Positions 36,308-45,268 of a stretch of 46,435 nucleotides of DNA are shown here, in pieces (positions within the stretch are counted from its first letter, which is position 1; each line of letters starts with the position of its first letter). The notes beneath the pieces are model-generated. The model searched no databases and was not told the origin of the DNA. It saw only the letters and a program-made list of their open reading frames with translations. The DNA is from Planctomycetota bacterium (lineage in GTDB: Bacteria; Planctomycetota; Phycisphaerae; SM23-33): NCBI GenBank assembly GCA_012729725.1, contig JAAYCO010000222.1, positions 1 through 46,435 on the forward strand, written 5' to 3'. The position numbers and the translations under genes were made by a program.

Positions 36308-36756
36308 GAACTCGTCTTTGATGTGACGGGGCCGACAAGCGCCGGCCGATGACTATGATTCGATGCCGGCTCCCCAAATCGAGGCCAACCTGCCAAAGAA
36401 AAGCCTTCGGCATGGAGCTTCAACAGCAGTCGAGCTGTAGTGCGCGAACGGCCTCTGATTCGCACTAGCGACTGCCTCGGACAAACATTGCCAGTCTCTG
36501 ATAACCAACATCCTGGCGCCTAACCATTTACGGCAAAGCGGCTTCATATACCTTACAACACGAACGAAAGCATATGGTAATTCTATCCTAACATGTTTTT
36601 TCGGCACTGGCGAGGTTTTGACTTAACAGAAGAAGAAAATGGTTTGTCAGAATCGCCCATCGCCCGAAGCGTCCCCGCACGACTCGGCGCATATCTGTCC
36701 GCACTTGAAGCTTTCCATTGTCTGGAGTAATCCCCGCGCGTTATCATCACGTAGCC
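36308..36756. other. AT-richer gap without a convincing gene
   Basis: About 450 bases separate the exporter operon from the restriction-modification genes, both divergent from here. Composition is visibly more AT-rich than the surroundings between about 36540 and 36660. The gap presumably holds the promoters for both sides. An 84-codon frame on the minus strand (36353-36607) starts with GTG after a run of A and has no recognisable content, so I do not call it. No direct repeat or tRNA end was seen to mark an insertion boundary. Confidence 0.5.
36718..36747 (+). promoter_or_regulatory. Promoter of the cytosine methyltransferase, leaderless type
   Basis: TTGTCT (36718-36723), 18 bases, TATCAT (36742-36747), then nine bases to ATG 36757. 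No Shine-Dalgarno lies before the ATG. An in-frame TTG at 36718 is the first base of the -35 box and therefore an unlikely start. Confidence 0.45.
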
Positions 36757-37962
36757 ATGGCCATCTTCCAACAACCTCAAGATCAGGGTCAGACACGGAC
36801 GGCAGGCGACGCTCTGGAATTTTTCGCGGGCATCGGACTGGTGCGCCTTGGCCTTGAGGCGGCAGACTGGCGGGTGGTTTTCGCCAACGACAACGATCCC
36901 GCCAAGAGAGAGATGTACGACGCCCATTTCGGGCAGGCCCAAAGCCATTTCGAACTGGGCGATATTCACCGCCTGTCGGACGAGGCAGTTCCCGACGCCA
37001 CGCTTGCCACCGCCTCTTTTCCATGCACCGACCTATCCCTGGCGGGAATGAGACAAGGCCTGGAGGGAAAACAGTCTTCGGCCTTCTTTGGCTTCACCAG
37101 GATTCTAAAGAACATGCGGGACCGTCGGCCTCCTCTGATCCTGCTTGAAAACGTGGTGGGCTTTTTGTCGTCCAGGGATGGCGCCGACTTCGAAACAGCC
37201 ACCAGAACGCTCAACGATCTGGGTTACATGTTGGATGTTTTCGTCCTGGACGCCAAGTGGTTCGTCCCTCAGAGCAGGCCCAGGTTGTTCATTGTGGGCT
37301 CACAAATACCGAACGAAGATGGCGCATCGACGACAGTTGAAGATCTGGTGACGACGCGTCTGCGCCCTGAGCCAGTCGTACGCTTCATAGAGGCTCATCC
37401 CGAGATGCGATGGAACATACGAAAGCTGCCATTTCCTCCGGTAGCGTCTCGGAAGTCGCTCACGGACATATTGGAGGATTTGCCTCCCGAGGCTCCGGAA
37501 TGGTGGGATGCCCAACGGGCCGAGTACCTGCTCAACCAGATGAGCGAACGGCATAAAGCGATCGCGATGAGCTGGATGAACCTCTCGTCGTGGACGTACG
37601 GAACCGTTTTCCGCAGAGTGAGAATGCAAGCCGACGGCAAGAAGAGGTCGATGGGCGAGCTGCGCTACGACGGTCTGGCCGGATGTCTCAGGACGCCAAA
37701 GGGAGGCAGCGGCAGACAGATTCTGTTCAAGGCGGGGTATGGCACATATGCAGCACGGCTGCTGACGCCCAGAGAGTGCGCGCGCCTCATGGGAGCCGAT
37801 GACTTCAGAATCACCGTTCCGCTGAACCAAGCGCTATTCGGCTTCGGCGACGCCGTGTGCGTTCCGGCCATAAAGTGGATAGCGGAGAACTATCTCAATC
37901 ATCTCGTAAATAACGCCACACTCCGCCGAGGGCATGCTCCCTGCATGGTGACTGCTTCATGA
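36757..37962 (+). CDS. DNA (cytosine-5) methyltransferase
   Basis: The 401-residue enzyme transfers a methyl group from S-adenosylmethionine to cytosine C5 in DNA. Motif I is EFFAGIGLVRLGLE, motif IV ASFPCTDLSLAG with the catalytic Cys at C90, motif VI LLENVVGF, motif VIII SRPRLFIVGS, and motif X GDAVCVPAIKWIAENY. The variable target-recognition region lies between about 200 and 310, and the recognition sequence cannot be read from it. Its stop overlaps the next gene by four bases (ATGA). The companion endonuclease and Vsr make this a type II restriction-modification unit. Confidence 0.95.
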   Translation: MAIFQQPQDQGQTRTAGDALEFFAGIGLVRLGLEAADWRVVFANDNDPAKREMYDAHFGQAQSHFELGDIHRLSDEAVPDATLATASFPCTDLSLAGMRQGLEGKQSSAFFGFTRILKNMRDRRPPLILLENVVGFLSSRDGADFETATRTLNDLGYMLDVFVLDAKWFVPQSRPRLFIVGSQIPNEDGASTTVEDLVTTRLRPEPVVRFIEAHPEMRWNIRKLPFPPVASRKSLTDILEDLPPEAPEWWDAQRAEYLLNQMSERHKAIAMSWMNLSSWTYGTVFRRVRMQADGKKRSMGELRYDGLAGCLRTPKGGSGRQILFKAGYGTYAARLLTPRECARLMGADDFRITVPLNQALFGFGDAVCVPAIKWIAENYLNHLVNNATLRRGHAPCMVTAS

Positions 37963-38930
37963 CTCCATCATCTCTGGAAGATACTGGATTTGAAAAGTGG
38001 TTCCTGGGCTTGAAGCCCCAAAAGCAGTACTGCGGTCTTCCAGCCAAAGGCACGATAGCCGCCGCGCTGGTTGTGCTGGAGCGACTGAGGGAACAGTGCG
38101 ATCTGCGGATGGCTTCACATTTGACAAAAGGGGGCGCTCAGATCGCCGGACTCACCTCTTCATCATTGGGCAAGATACTTGCCCGGTTCGGCGAGAGCAG
38201 GAAGTTTCCTAGCGAGGCTGGAAGAACAAACCGGGGCAACAATCAGCCAATAAACGATTTGCTGGAAGCGCTTGAAGCAGCGGGCTTTGGCGGTCTCGCA
38301 TGCTCGGACAGGAATTCGCTCATCAACGCAATGCAGAAGAAGCTCGTCGGCGTGATTGGCGAGTACTACAAGCTTGAGCGGCTTCGTTTTGAGTATGATC
38401 CCGCCAGCCCCGTGCGAGTCGTTATAGCCAGCATTCTGGAGATCGCCGCACGAAGAAATCAGAGTGGTCCCGTCGCCCAGCATCTGGTGGGCGCGAAACT
38501 TGCCTTGAGGTTTCCTGATTTGACCGTTGATTGCTTTCCCTACAGCGCTGCCGATGATCAATCAGGAAGGGCCGGGGACTTCAGAATAGGGAATACGGCG
38601 TTTCATGTGACTGTTGCGCCCAACTTGGGGCACGTAGCGCGCTGCGAAAAGAACATAAGCGAAGGCTTGGCCGTATTCCTGCTGGTCTGCGAATCGAAGG
38701 TAAGTGCGGCAAAGGCCCTTCTGGAAACCAGGAATCTGCAGAATATGGTTGCAGCTGAATCTGTGGAGTCTTTCGTAGGTCAGAACATCTCCGAGCTTGC
38801 CAAGTTCACATCTGACGGGCGATCGAGCATGATGGCGCAATTGCTCGAGAACTTCAATAATCGAATCAGGCTTGCTGAAACCGATCTTTCCCTGTTGATC
38901 GAGATCCCGTCCGCCCTGCGCTGGGAGTAG
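37959..38930 (+). CDS. DUF4928 protein, probable type II restriction endonuclease
   Basis: The 323-residue protein resembles the DUF4928 family regularly found between a C5-methyltransferase gene and vsr. The clearest family block is GRAGDFRIGNTAFHVTVAP near residues 205-223. It may be a variant of the PD-(D/E)XK core, with Asp in GDF and a following beta strand lacking the usual ExK. Nuclease activity is thus inferred from context, not shown. It starts on the ATGA overlap with the methyltransferase and is followed four bases later by vsr. Confidence 0.8.
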   Translation: MTPSSLEDTGFEKWFLGLKPQKQYCGLPAKGTIAAALVVLERLREQCDLRMASHLTKGGAQIAGLTSSSLGKILARFGESRKFPSEAGRTNRGNNQPINDLLEALEAAGFGGLACSDRNSLINAMQKKLVGVIGEYYKLERLRFEYDPASPVRVVIASILEIAARRNQSGPVAQHLVGAKLALRFPDLTVDCFPYSAADDQSGRAGDFRIGNTAFHVTVAPNLGHVARCEKNISEGLAVFLLVCESKVSAAKALLETRNLQNMVAAESVESFVGQNISELAKFTSDGRSSMMAQLLENFNNRIRLAETDLSLLIEIPSALRWE

Positions 38931-38934
38931 GAGT

Positions 38935-39378
38935 TTGGACAAGGTTTCTTCGACTCAGCGGAGTTGGATCATGTCAAGAGTGCGGTCCCAAAACAGCCAG
39001 GCTGAGTTGGTTGTTCGCAGACTTATCTACTCGATGGGCTTCAGATACCGGTTGCACCGGAAAGACCTGCCCGGAAAACCAGATATCGTTCTTGCCAGAT
39101 TGAAGTGCGTTGTATTTGTGAATGGGTGCTTCTGGCACCAGCACAGATGCAAGCGCGGCAACAGGAGGCCCGCCTCCAACCGGGAGTACTGGATCAAAAA
39201 GCTCCAGCGGAATGTCAGCAGAGACCGCCTGAACATCGCCAAGCTCAAGAAGCAGGGCTGGGCTGTGCTGGTGGTTTGGGAATGTCAGACAGCCCAGCGC
39301 GGCGGCGAGCGTTTGAAGAGGGTCGTGTCGAAGTTCCTGGCGAATCGGGGCCAGCGGCCGATAAAGGCCAGACCGTAG
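38935..39378 (+). CDS. vsr: Very short patch repair endonuclease
   Basis: The 147-residue enzyme nicks 5' to the T of T:G mismatches that arise by deamination of 5-methylcytosine, so it protects sites of the neighbouring methyltransferase. Family marks are SRVRSQNSQAELVVRRL near the N-terminus, GKPDIVL with catalytic D50, FVNGCFWHQHRC with zinc and catalytic residues (C65, H68, H70, C72) and NREYWIKKLQRN. The start is TTG 38935 with GGGAG or AGGAG overlapping the previous stop. The stop codon lies inside the hairpin shared with dnaK. Confidence 0.93.
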   Translation: MDKVSSTQRSWIMSRVRSQNSQAELVVRRLIYSMGFRYRLHRKDLPGKPDIVLARLKCVVFVNGCFWHQHRCKRGNRRPASNREYWIKKLQRNVSRDRLNIAKLKKQGWAVLVVWECQTAQRGGERLKRVVSKFLANRGQRPIKARP

Positions 39379-41550: not shown

Positions 41551-41901
41551 ATGCGACGGCACATTATAGGATTCGCAGGCTCTCGGGCGGCTTTTGTCAT
41601 GTTGTTCGCCCTGATGCTGTGCGGATGCGAAAACTACAGTTTTTGGCCTTTCAAGAAGGAAAAGCCCTCCGCTCCCGCAGCGCTCCAGCGGCATGATGAG
41701 GAGCTCTCGGCCATCAATGCGGACCGGGCGATGCTTCAGAAAGAGCGCGGGGAGCTGATTGTTCGCAATCAGCGGCTGGCTGACGAGCTTGAACAGGCAC
41801 GCGAAACTATCAGGCAGCAGAGGCTCCAACTTGAACGGCTTGAGGATCTCCAGGCCGAGAATGAGCGCCTGTTGCAGCAACGGCACAACAATCCAGAATA
41901 G
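41551..41901 (+). CDS. Coiled-coil lipoprotein of unknown function
   Basis: The 116-residue product has a signal peptide and a good lipobox (LMLCGC, Cys near residue 26), so it is probably lipid-anchored in a membrane. After a short linker (FWPFKKEKPSAP) the rest is heptad-rich helix (EELSAINADRAMLQKERGEL ... LERLEDLQAENERLLQQ), a coiled coil of about 65 residues. It could form a spacer or a multimer in the envelope. It is divergent from dnaK. Family not recognised. Confidence 0.7.
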   Translation: MRRHIIGFAGSRAAFVMLFALMLCGCENYSFWPFKKEKPSAPAALQRHDEELSAINADRAMLQKERGELIVRNQRLADELEQARETIRQQRLQLERLEDLQAENERLLQQRHNNPE

Positions 41902-42525: not shown

Positions 42526-43650
42526 ATGCGGATAGTGGTAACGGGTCAAGTCGGTCTGGACAAGAAGCCGTTTCTCCAGAAAGTTGTCGAGCTTGCGCGC
42601 GAGCAGGGTTTCGATCTTGCCTTGATGAATCTTGGCGAGATGATGTACTCCGAGGCGCCGGACGTGCCAAAGGGCAGAATTCTTGATCTGCCTCTCTCGC
42701 GCCTTCAGGGGCTGCGAAGAAGCGTTTTCAAGGACGTTCTCAGCGCGTGTGCGAAACACGCCAACGTCATAGTCAACACGCACGCGACCTTTCGCTGGCG
42801 GCACGGGCTGTTCTACGCTTTCGATCACGACCAGATGCAGGCCCTCAACGCCGACATGTACGTGGTGCTGGTGGACAACATCGATCGCGTCCATTACCGC
42901 CTGACGCGGGACGGCCATCACGACCACACGCTCAAAGACCTGATGGTGTGGCGAGAAGAAGAGGTGCTGGCCACCGAGTTGCTTTCCGGCATAGTCCGCG
43001 GCCACGGTTGCTTTTACATCATGGCCCGCGGCGGCGAGCAGGAAGACAGCGCTGCCGAGATGCTGGTAAGGATGATCTTCCGACGCTCGCTGCGCAAGGC
43101 GTACCTGAGCTTCCCGATGAGTCACGTCGGCAACGGGGCCGCATCATCGGCGGCGATGGCGCAGATAGAAGACTTCCGCCGCCAGATGAAGCGAATGTTC
43201 CTGTGCTTCGATCCCGGCGACGTGGAGGAAAAACCCCTTTGCGCCCTGGCGATTCAGGCGGCGCAGTCGGGCCTCAGATCAATCGAGTACGGTCCCGCCG
43301 GCGCAAAGGCGTTGCTCGACGTCAGCGACCTTCTGACGATCATTCCCGACATCGACGGCCAGATCTACGCGCGCGACTTCAAGCTGATCGACCAGTCGGA
43401 CATGATCATATCGCTTATTCCGAATATTGAAGAAGGCAGGCCCTGCATATCAAGCGGAGTGGAGCGCGAGCTGCAGCATGCGCACGAAGCGGCCAAGGAT
43501 GTGTTCGTGATCTGGCTTGCGAACGTTCATCCTTCACCCTTCATCACCGAGACGGCGACTGAGGTGTTCAGGTCCGTCGAGCAGGCTGTCAAGTTCTTCA
43601 TCGAGAACGGTTACGTGCCGTCCGGGCCGCCCGGCAGACTGTTCACGTAG
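42526..43650 (+). CDS. Fusion of a P-loop kinase-like and a nucleoside deoxyribosyltransferase-like domain
   Basis: The 374-residue protein has two parts. Residues 1 to about 188 resemble archaeal-type adenylate kinase: strand and loop MRIVVTGQVGLDKKPFLQKV, then VNTHATFRWRHGLFYAF (84-100) and MYVVLVDNIDRVHYRL (111-126). The P-loop is degenerate, with Asp before Lys and no Ser/Thr after. Residues about 190-365 resemble the nucleoside 2-deoxyribosyltransferase fold: KAYLSFPMSHV, QSDMIISLIP and CISSGVERELQHAHEAAKDVFVIW, with E314 at the place of the catalytic Glu. A nucleotide- or nucleoside-processing role is inferred. It is a lone gene, three bases short of the convergent htpX. Confidence 0.7.
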   Translation: MRIVVTGQVGLDKKPFLQKVVELAREQGFDLALMNLGEMMYSEAPDVPKGRILDLPLSRLQGLRRSVFKDVLSACAKHANVIVNTHATFRWRHGLFYAFDHDQMQALNADMYVVLVDNIDRVHYRLTRDGHHDHTLKDLMVWREEEVLATELLSGIVRGHGCFYIMARGGEQEDSAAEMLVRMIFRRSLRKAYLSFPMSHVGNGAASSAAMAQIEDFRRQMKRMFLCFDPGDVEEKPLCALAIQAAQSGLRSIEYGPAGAKALLDVSDLLTIIPDIDGQIYARDFKLIDQSDMIISLIPNIEEGRPCISSGVERELQHAHEAAKDVFVIWLANVHPSPFITETATEVFRSVEQAVKFFIENGYVPSGPPGRLFT

Positions 43651-43652
43651 GA

Positions 43653-44591
43653 TCATCTCGTCAGCGACATCAGCCTGTCGATGCGTTCCTTCAACGGCGG
43701 GTGCGTGCTGAGCAGATTGCGTGCGTCATGTCCCAGCCTCATGACAGGCGGCACAATGTACAGCGGCGCGGTGGCGCGGTTGGCGGATTCGAGTATCTCC
43801 CTGTCGCCCGAAAGCTTGGCAAGCGCCGATGCCAGGCCCTGCGGATTTCGCGTAAGGTCAACGCTGGCGGCGTCGGCAAGGTATTCCCTCTGTCGCGACA
43901 GCGCCATCTGGATAATTCTTGCCAGAATCGGCGCCAGAATCGCCAGCACAAGGGCGATGACGACGATGATTATCTGTCCCCCGCCGCCGCCCTTGGAGTT
44001 TCTTCGCCGCGACCGGCCGGTCATGCCGCCGAAATACATGCTCCTGACAAACACGTCCGCCAGCATCACCAGCGTGCCCACAAGCACGGCCATCAGCATC
44101 GAGTACAGAATGTCGTAGTTGCGGATGTGGCACAACTCGTGGGCCATCACGCCCTGCAGCTCGTCCCTGCTGAGTTTGTGCCGCAGGCCGGCGGTGATAG
44201 CAACCGCAGCGTGCTTGGGATTTCTGCCTGTTGCGAAGGCGTTCATCGCCGGGCTGTCGATGACGAAGACCCGCGGCATGGGCGTGCCGCCCGCAATGGC
44301 GAGTTCTTCTATCACGTTGAACAGCTCAGGATCGTCGCTCTTGGCGATCTGCCTGGCGTTGCTCATGCCCAGCAGGGCCGACGGACCACCGAAGTAACTG
44401 AACAACGTAAGCAGGAACGCCAGAGCCCCAGCCGCCACCGGCACGCCGACGCGGAACGTCCTGTCGCCCTGCCCCCACACCTCGCCGATCAACACGCCAA
44501 ACGCAACGAAGAACAACATGAAGAACGCGATAAGCAGGTAGCTGTTTCGCTTATTGCGGGCAATAAGCGTGTTGAAGGTCACCGGCTGCAC
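43653..44591 (-). CDS. htpX: Zinc metalloprotease HtpX/M48 family
   Basis: The 312-residue membrane protease has two N-terminal membrane segments (about 17-38 and 48-68), the zinc motif HELCH (H151, E152, H155) and further segments after it. A Glu downstream, in the REYLAD helix (QREYLADAASVDLT), completes zinc binding. HtpX degrades misfolded membrane proteins. GTG 44591 is preceded by GGGAG at six bases. It follows lemA by 20 bases, a common pair in bacteria. Confidence 0.92.
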   Translation of the reverse strand: MQPVTFNTLIARNKRNSYLLIAFFMLFFVAFGVLIGEVWGQGDRTFRVGVPVAAGALAFLLTLFSYFGGPSALLGMSNARQIAKSDDPELFNVIEELAIAGGTPMPRVFVIDSPAMNAFATGRNPKHAAVAITAGLRHKLSRDELQGVMAHELCHIRNYDILYSMLMAVLVGTLVMLADVFVRSMYFGGMTGRSRRRNSKGGGGGQIIIVVIALVLAILAPILARIIQMALSRQREYLADAASVDLTRNPQGLASALAKLSGDREILESANRATAPLYIVPPVMRLGHDARNLLSTHPPLKERIDRLMSLTR

Positions 44592-44611
44592 TGATGGCTC
44601 CCTTGGGGCTT

Positions 44612-45160
44612 TTAGAATTTCACCTGCGGAGGCTGGCGATGCTCAGGTTCTTCGATCTGGAAATACTCCTGCTGCCTGAAGCCGAAGGAGTTCGCAATCA
44701 TGTTGTTGGGAAACTTCTGTATCGCCGAGTTGTACTCCGCCGAGGTTGAATTGTAGTGCTGACGCGAGAAGGCGATTCGGTTCTCGGTGCTGGTAAGCTC
44801 TTCCTGAAGCTGCATGAAGTTCTGATTGGCCTTCAGGTCGGGGTAGGCTTCAGATAGTGCGAAAAGCTGCCTCAGCGCGCCGGTAAGCATGTTCTCGGCC
44901 TGTGCGCGTTCCTGCATGCCGGCTGCTGCGGCTGCGGTGTTTCGTGCGGCTATCACCGCCTCCAGAGTTTCTCGTTCATGGGCGGCGTACCCCTTGACCG
45001 TCTCCACCAGGTTGGGCACAAGGTCATACCGGCGCTTGAGCTGCACATCAATCTGGCTCCATGCAGCTTGGCAGGCAACACGCTTCGAAACCAGGGCGTT
45101 GTAGACCGAAATCAACGCTATGGCCAGCACAACCACCACGCCGAGTGCTATCCAGGGCAT
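44612..45160 (-). CDS. lemA: LemA family protein
   Basis: The 182-residue protein starts with a membrane anchor (WIALGVVVVLAIALISVYNALV) and continues with the LemA helical domain, including RRYDLVPNLVETVKGYAAHE and ENRIAFSRQHYNSTSAEYN...FPNNMIANSFGF. Its role is poorly known, and it is often co-encoded with htpX, as here. ATG 45160 is set by AAGGAG five bases upstream. The frame open further upstream is not protein-like. Confidence 0.94.
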   Translation of the reverse strand: MPWIALGVVVVLAIALISVYNALVSKRVACQAAWSQIDVQLKRRYDLVPNLVETVKGYAAHERETLEAVIAARNTAAAAAGMQERAQAENMLTGALRQLFALSEAYPDLKANQNFMQLQEELTSTENRIAFSRQHYNSTSAEYNSAIQKFPNNMIANSFGFRQQEYFQIEEPEHRQPPQVKF

Positions 45161-45239
45161 AATCGCTCCTTCTGGCCGGATGCGGCGCAAAGCTTTCCAT
45201 CCAGCTTCGCGCCGAGGGCCGGCTACCCGATATGTCAAT

Positions 45240-45268
45240 AGACTAACGCCCAACAACCGCCGGGGCAA
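45240..45268 (-). promoter_or_regulatory. Possible lemA-htpX promoter
   Basis: The minus strand reads TTGCCC (45268-45263), 17 bases, TAGTCT (45245-45240), about 80 bases before the lemA ATG. Matches are moderate. Confidence 0.3.

Follow-up and report, generated by a model that had tools for sequence, protein, structure and literature searches.

The fusion gene and its conservation in Phycisphaerae

The window, meaning the whole stretch of 46,435 nucleotides analysed here, comes from a genome of 3.2 Mb that is 96.6% complete. At 42526-43650 on the forward strand it holds an open reading frame with an ATG start that encodes a protein of 374 amino acids. This gene stands alone in the window; downstream of it the htpX-like and lemA genes point towards it. 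The features of this part of the window are:

36718-37962, forward strand, C5-cytosine methylase
37959-38930, forward strand, DUF4928 protein with a match to a model for type II restriction enzymes
38935-39378, forward strand, Vsr mismatch endonuclease
41551-41901, forward strand, small coiled-coil lipoprotein-like open reading frame upstream of the fusion gene
42526-43650, forward strand, 374-amino-acid gene, predicted pseudo-adenylate kinase/dNMP N-glycosidase fusion (open reading frame; homologues across the class; AlphaFold2 model)
43653-45268, reverse strand, gene for an HtpX-like M48 peptidase and gene for LemA, both convergent with the fusion gene

The methylase, DUF4928 and Vsr genes form a compact restriction-modification set (36718-39378, forward strand) beside dnaK, about 3 kb upstream of the fusion gene.

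Homologues of the 374-residue protein occur in most Phycisphaerae genomes, begin at the same methionine and show 50-72% identity from end to end. Because of this full-length conservation the open reading frame is a genuine gene, and a chance or shadow frame was ruled out. A profile search with 87 sequences found the gene in 262 of 298 Phycisphaerae genomes (about 88%), nearly always in a single copy, and in 210 of the 230 genomes of good quality; it is a core gene of the class. One genome (G507) carries two full-length copies, L176 on contig C9 and L177 on contig C28. That a nearly single-copy gene of such reach has neither a name nor a family model shows a genuine gap in the knowledge of the class.

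When a profile of the C-terminal half was searched against 392 Planctomycetota genomes, it matched 38 genomes of the class, the window's own included, and G277. The G277 copy (L210, G277:C466), the sole one outside the class in this search of the phylum, is probably misbinned, since it lies on a 6.6-kb contig and its protein branches from within family f16 in the tree. In a scan of genome contigs, the best 80 of 437 confirmed relatives are all from Planctomycetota except one metagenome-assembled genome labelled Alphaproteobacteria (IP29b_bin.190; L099), a label that is probably wrong. The sequences cluster largely by genome family in the protein tree, which suggests vertical descent. A phage, plasmid or defence origin was rejected, as no homologue was found among the phages, plasmids and viral contigs searched and there was no PADLOC or PHROGs match.

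An AlphaFold2 model of the full protein was obtained with a pLDDT of 90.8 and a pTM of 0.89, and the boundary between the two domains lies at about residue 186-190. Residue counts given below refer to an alignment of 87 fusion-protein sequences. In this alignment 58 residues are invariant, 29 in each half, and the mean pairwise identity is 57.9% for the N-terminal half versus 56.9% for the C-terminal half. Since both measures match between the halves, the N-terminal half is under a constraint comparable to that on the C-terminal half.

The adenylate-kinase-like N-terminal domain

An earlier note on this DNA had likened the N-terminal half to archaeal adenylate kinase with a degenerate P-loop, and the C-terminal half to nucleoside 2-deoxyribosyltransferase with a glutamate at the catalytic place. 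Structure prediction and fold search of the halves, which it had proposed as a check, put each half in the family named and neither in an unrelated one. The N-terminal half matches NF003122 (archaeal adenylate kinase) with an E value of 6.7e-9 and 35.5 bits, short of the equivalog cut-off of 155; it also matches PDB entry 6pjw by sequence (E 4e-8) and exceeds the gathering score of AAA_17. The fold search of the full AlphaFold2 model paired this half with the archaeal adenylate kinases 6pjw (TMt 0.85) and 6ln3 (TMt 0.81). Its features are:

42526-43083, forward strand, residues 1-186, archaeal-adenylate-kinase-like domain, predicted to be kinase-dead (NF003122, AAA_17 and PDB matches; 6pjw fold; catalytic residues lost)
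42544-42567, forward strand, degenerate P-loop G7-Q-V-G10-L-D12-K13-K14 (window letters GQVGLDKKP; GxPGVGKTT or GGTT in archaeal adenylate kinase)
42643-42645, forward strand, Met40, which the alignment pairs with Met43 in M. igneus adenylate kinase (invariant, 87/87)
42775-42813, forward strand, AMP-side strand and loop N84-T-H86-A-T-F-R90-W91-R-H93-G94-L-F96 (from alignments; archaeal counterpart DTH[AS]xxKTPxGY)
42919-42927, forward strand, lid positions 132 and 134, aligned to archaeal R138 and R140 (Arg in 2/87 and 0/87)
42949-42963, forward strand, W142-R-E-E-E146, family-specific signature (invariant, 87/87)

The domain shares the fold of the archaeal enzymes (NF003122/PRK04040; 6pjw, 6ln3 and 1nks) and keeps part of their nucleotide site. 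The P-loop glycines G7 and G10 are invariant (87/87) and Lys13 is present in 85/87 sequences; on the AMP side Gly37, Met40, Thr85-His86, Arg90 (the position of the archaeal Arg/Lys) and Gly94 are retained. Met43, the M. igneus counterpart of Met40, lies near the adenine of AMP (PMC10883716). Other arginines kept are R125 in the lid, Arg128 (67/87) and the invariant Arg143. Unlike the archaeal enzymes, the domain is without the P-loop Ser/Thr, Gly12, the aspartate of the DTH motif and both catalytic lid arginines. The family consensus of the P-loop is G7-x-x-G10-x-[DEN]12-K13-x14: position 12 is Asp, Glu or Asn in 87/87 sequences and Gly in 0/87, position 14 is Ser or Thr in just 2/87, and the DTH aspartate has become an invariant asparagine (Asn84, 87/87). 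R138 and R140 of the M. igneus enzyme are the lid arginines that carry out phosphoryl transfer (PMC10883716); the alignment that pairs them with positions 132 and 134 is gap-free but weak, with a register that at such identity is somewhat uncertain, and the nearby Arg128 and Arg143 further qualify the loss of these arginines.

Because the P-loop Ser/Thr14, Gly12 and both catalytic lid arginines are lost, the N-terminal half looks catalytically dead as a kinase. Judged by its residues, it lacks the features that define adenylate kinase catalysis and ought not to carry that annotation. Neither is it the adenylate kinase of the cell, because canonical adk (PF00406) is present in 39 of 40 genomes, G000 included; a role as the cell's only adenylate kinase was thus ruled out. 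The W-R-E-E-E motif (residues 142-146) is absent from the archaeal enzymes aligned and possibly sits at the domain interface.

The C-terminal domain and its predicted active site

Fold search was needed for the C-terminal half because a PDB sequence search with its profile alone matched nothing meaningful. Modelled alone with AlphaFold2 (pLDDT 89.1), the domain returned human DNPH1 as the first-ranked Foldseek match (8rpt, E 3e-6), together with 8os9_D (TMt 0.76), the nucleoside 2'-deoxyribosyltransferase (NDT) 7o62 (TMt 0.82) and weak matches to Sir2; in the full-length model the C-terminal half matched 7o62 with a TMt of 0.78. Similarity to PF05014 is weak, with matches in 7 of 17 family members (best E 0.025) and 13.1 bits for the window protein, below the gathering score of 28.8, and the assignment therefore rests on fold and residues. 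The domain and its key residues are:

43084-43647, forward strand, residues 187-374, predicted NDT/DNPH1-superfamily N-glycosidase domain (AlphaFold2; PDB fold search; weak PF05014)
43102-43104, forward strand, Tyr193, position of DNPH1 Tyr24 and MilB Phe17 (motif)
43375-43377, forward strand, Asp284, position of DNPH1 Asp80, leaving-group acid (profile alignment)
43450-43452, forward strand, Ser309, position of DNPH1 Ser98 and MilB Ser97, 5'-phosphate binding (profile alignment)
43468-43470, forward strand, Glu315, position of DNPH1 Glu104 and MilB Glu103, catalytic nucleophile (profile alignment)
43534-43536, forward strand, Ser337, position of DNPH1 Ser128', partner-subunit phosphate contact (profile alignment)

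Each of these five residues is invariant (87/87). An hhalign profile alignment to human DNPH1 (E 0.0014) pairs D284 with D80, S309 with S98, E315 with E104 and S337 with S128; Y193 was equated with Y24 not through hhalign but through a Y-x-[CS] motif shared by the first strands. The glutamate that had been noticed at the catalytic place thus corresponds to Glu104 of DNPH1, an enzyme in which Glu104 is the nucleophile, Asp80 the leaving-group acid, Tyr24 the third member of the triad, and Ser98 and Ser128' of the partner subunit contact the phosphate (PMC10603095). S309 and G311 are the counterparts of the Ser and Gly that touch the phosphate in both MilB and DNPH1.

The position of Tyr193 governs sugar selectivity: it holds Phe in CMP glycosidases and Tyr in dNMP glycosidases, and an F17Y change switches MilB from CMP to dCMP (PMC4081090, PMC7308715). 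By analogy, Tyr193 in place of Phe predicts a 2'-deoxy substrate. Because the catalytic and phosphate-binding set is invariant and tyrosine occupies the selectivity position, we predict that the domain is a dNMP N-glycosidase.

On its model and alignments, the C-terminal half carries the features of DNPH1/Rcl (human 8os9/8rpt, rat 4fyh) that were tested, namely the fold, the Tyr/Asp/Glu set, both phosphate-binding serines and the deoxy-type tyrosine, and the reaction predicted for it, from dNMP to base and deoxyribose 5-phosphate, is that of DNPH1. Identity in structural alignments is 12-15%, and whereas DNPH1 is small and stand-alone, the Phycisphaerae domain sits behind a pseudo-adenylate kinase. 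Met198 occupies the place of Ile29 in DNPH1 and of the base-stacking Phe22 in MilB, and Ser195, two residues past Tyr193, is invariant. The water-activating Glu55 and base-contacting His56 of DNPH1 fall outside the hhalign alignment; just past the equivalent strand comes Asp229, which is invariant and a possible stand-in for Glu55, and there is no clear counterpart of His56. With NDT (PF05014; 7o62, 6evs, CtNDT) the domain shares the superfamily fold and the nucleophilic glutamate, but it has the phosphate-binding serines of the NMP hydrolases and no full-length Pfam match at the gathering score.

Neighbouring deoC genes and a proposed role in the dNMP pool

A neighbourhood survey of homologues, also suggested by the earlier note, covered 79 loci from about 20 families, a non-random sample, and brought out deoC. 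This gene lies downstream on the same strand in 18/79 loci and is the next gene in 14 of these, so that it adjoins the fusion gene in a minority of the loci sampled. The pairing occurs in families f10, f18 and f107 and, elsewhere in the tree, in f13, and in several f107 and f18 genomes the stop and start codons of the two genes overlap by 4 bp. These deoC neighbours score 197-246 bits against the equivalog TIGR00126 (cut-off 117). DeoC converts 2-deoxyribose 5-phosphate to acetaldehyde and glyceraldehyde 3-phosphate. Genome-wide, deoC is present in 35/40 genomes with the fusion gene versus 8/20 without it (Fisher p 0.0002, a value that ignores kinship). Genomes of family f12 have deoC but lack the fusion gene. 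DeoC is a frequent but not an obligatory partner, because deoC was not found in the window's own genome, at its 96.6% completeness, nor in G008, G027, G044 and G052. Downstream genes elsewhere include LOG-family (TIGR00730) nucleotide phosphoribohydrolases in five f8 loci and endonuclease V (deaminated-purine repair), which is the nearest neighbour in L058 and a few genes off in L055. The neighbourhood tables held no neighbour conserved across the whole class and no recurrent defence neighbours.

Computation shows both folds, a catalytic set that never varies, kinase residues that have been lost, nearly single-copy conservation across the class and coupling to deoC. From these results we infer, with moderate confidence, a dNMP N-glycosidase that is gated or targeted by a pseudo-adenylate kinase acting as nucleotide sensor; the reaction, its deoxy specificity, the ligand of the N-domain and the regulatory role are all part of this interpretation. 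The C-domain would hydrolyse the N-glycosidic bond of a 2'-deoxynucleoside 5'-monophosphate. Glu315 would attack C1' to give a covalent deoxyribose-phosphate intermediate, Tyr193 would position Glu315 and exclude a 2'-OH, Asp284 would protonate the departing base, and Ser309 and Ser337, the latter probably from the partner subunit, would hold the 5'-phosphate. The predicted products are the free base and 2-deoxyribose 5-phosphate, which DeoC could then cleave where deoC follows in the operon. The N-domain, apparently stripped of its phosphoryl-transfer residues, still has some of the fold that holds nucleotides; its ligand is most likely a (deoxy)nucleotide, and it may regulate or target the hydrolase through its activity, substrate supply or assembly. 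In Phycisphaerae the whole protein would have a housekeeping function, trimming or sanitising the pool of dNMPs. The hydrolase half of this mechanism draws on the fold, the residues and the context of the pathway; the governing role of the dead N-domain, drawn from the loss of catalysis together with strong conservation, is its least certain step.

Salvage or sanitation of nucleotides had been among the functions first suggested, and for the C-terminal half this suggestion stands, narrowed by fold, residues and deoC to a predicted dNMP N-glycosidase; nucleotide sensing by the kinase-dead half is plausible. The accompanying idea of an undescribed activity is probably too strong, as DNPH1/Rcl is already known to hydrolyse dNMPs; it is the architecture, with its pseudo-kinase, and the conservation as a core gene throughout the class that seem to lack an earlier description. 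No characterised full-length homologue was found, nor, in the literature searched, a published description of a pseudo-adenylate kinase/NDT-type fusion. We know of no earlier pseudo-adenylate kinase that controls a nucleotide-degrading enzyme; if our reading is right, this would be the first, and would point to an unusual policing of DNA precursors that has a parallel in human DNPH1, itself a target in research on PARP inhibitors. A bolder version, which we regard as tentative, has the dead adenylate kinase read NMP/dNMP or the adenylate energy charge in the pocket it has kept and switch the N-glycosidase, making the protein a dedicated, near-essential, class-specific governor of the deoxynucleotide pool, of a sort absent from described pathways.

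Four alternatives were weighed. The C-domain may be a phosphodeoxyribosyltransferase, which would take deoxyribose 5-phosphate off a dNMP and hand it to a different base, either in salvage or to make a modified deoxynucleotide; it might also combine transfer with hydrolysis, as phage DmtZ does. Superfamily and active site are common to transferases and an NDT-type site could transfer; DmtZ of the PurZ0 phages, an NDT-type dNMP hydrolase that some phages fuse to dUTPase, both hydrolyses dAMP and transfers to the Z base (PMC12884076), and endonuclease V occurs downstream in the two loci named above. DmtZ differs in that it lacks an adenylate-kinase domain, has Asn for the catalytic Asp and makes other contacts with the phosphate. 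The neighbour tables show no recurrent purZ-like or base-supply gene, and hydrolysis is favoured over transfer because deoC, whose product removes deoxyribose phosphate, is repeatedly coupled; we consider a transferase unlikely.

Cleavage of ribonucleotides, as by MilB or LOG, which would feed ribose 5-phosphate, is less probable still. The LOG-family genes that adjoin the fusion gene in f8 and the invariant Ser195 speak for it. MilB and BcmB, the CMP N-glycosidases, share with the domain the Ser and Gly phosphate contacts, the catalytic Asp and Glu and a Pro that comes four residues past the Tyr/Phe position. Against cleavage of ribonucleotides stand the deoC coupling and the invariance of Tyr193 where CMP glycosidases carry Phe, the residue whose change to Tyr gives the CMP-to-dCMP switch in MilB; MilB has Phe17 (ribo) and Arg23 where the Phycisphaerae protein has Tyr193 and Ser/Thr199.

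We give no more credence to a bifunctional salvage enzyme in which an N-terminal (d)NMP or other kinase of altered chemistry works beside a C-terminal NDT. HGPRT-adenylate kinase fusions exist (PMC7326950), and conservation extends to G7, G10, K13, R125, R90, the invariant Arg143 and a large part of the loop on the NMP side, but the P-loop Ser/Thr is missing from 85/87 sequences, Gly12 is always acidic or Asn, the DTH Asp is always Asn, the Arg138/Arg140 lid positions are not Arg, and canonical adk is present.

A defence or signalling role, with the N-terminal half as detector of a nucleotide that marks phage or alarm and the C-terminal half as destroyer of nucleotides or NAD, is very improbable: NDT-fold domains belong to wider NAD- and nucleotide-cleaving superfamilies, the Sir2 fold matches are weak and a restriction-modification set lies nearby in the window, but the earlier suggestion that the protein destroys a nucleotide signal has, in the defence sense, no support, given the absence of PADLOC and PHROGs matches, of phage, plasmid or viral-contig homologues and of recurrent defence neighbours, and the apparent vertical inheritance of a gene found nearly always singly in 262/298 class genomes that group by family in the tree.

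Finally, short coiled-coil lipoproteins similar to the one at 41551-41901 precede the fusion gene in the close relatives L051, L052, L053, L054 and L065, where they often come after a TlpA-like thioredoxin-domain gene.
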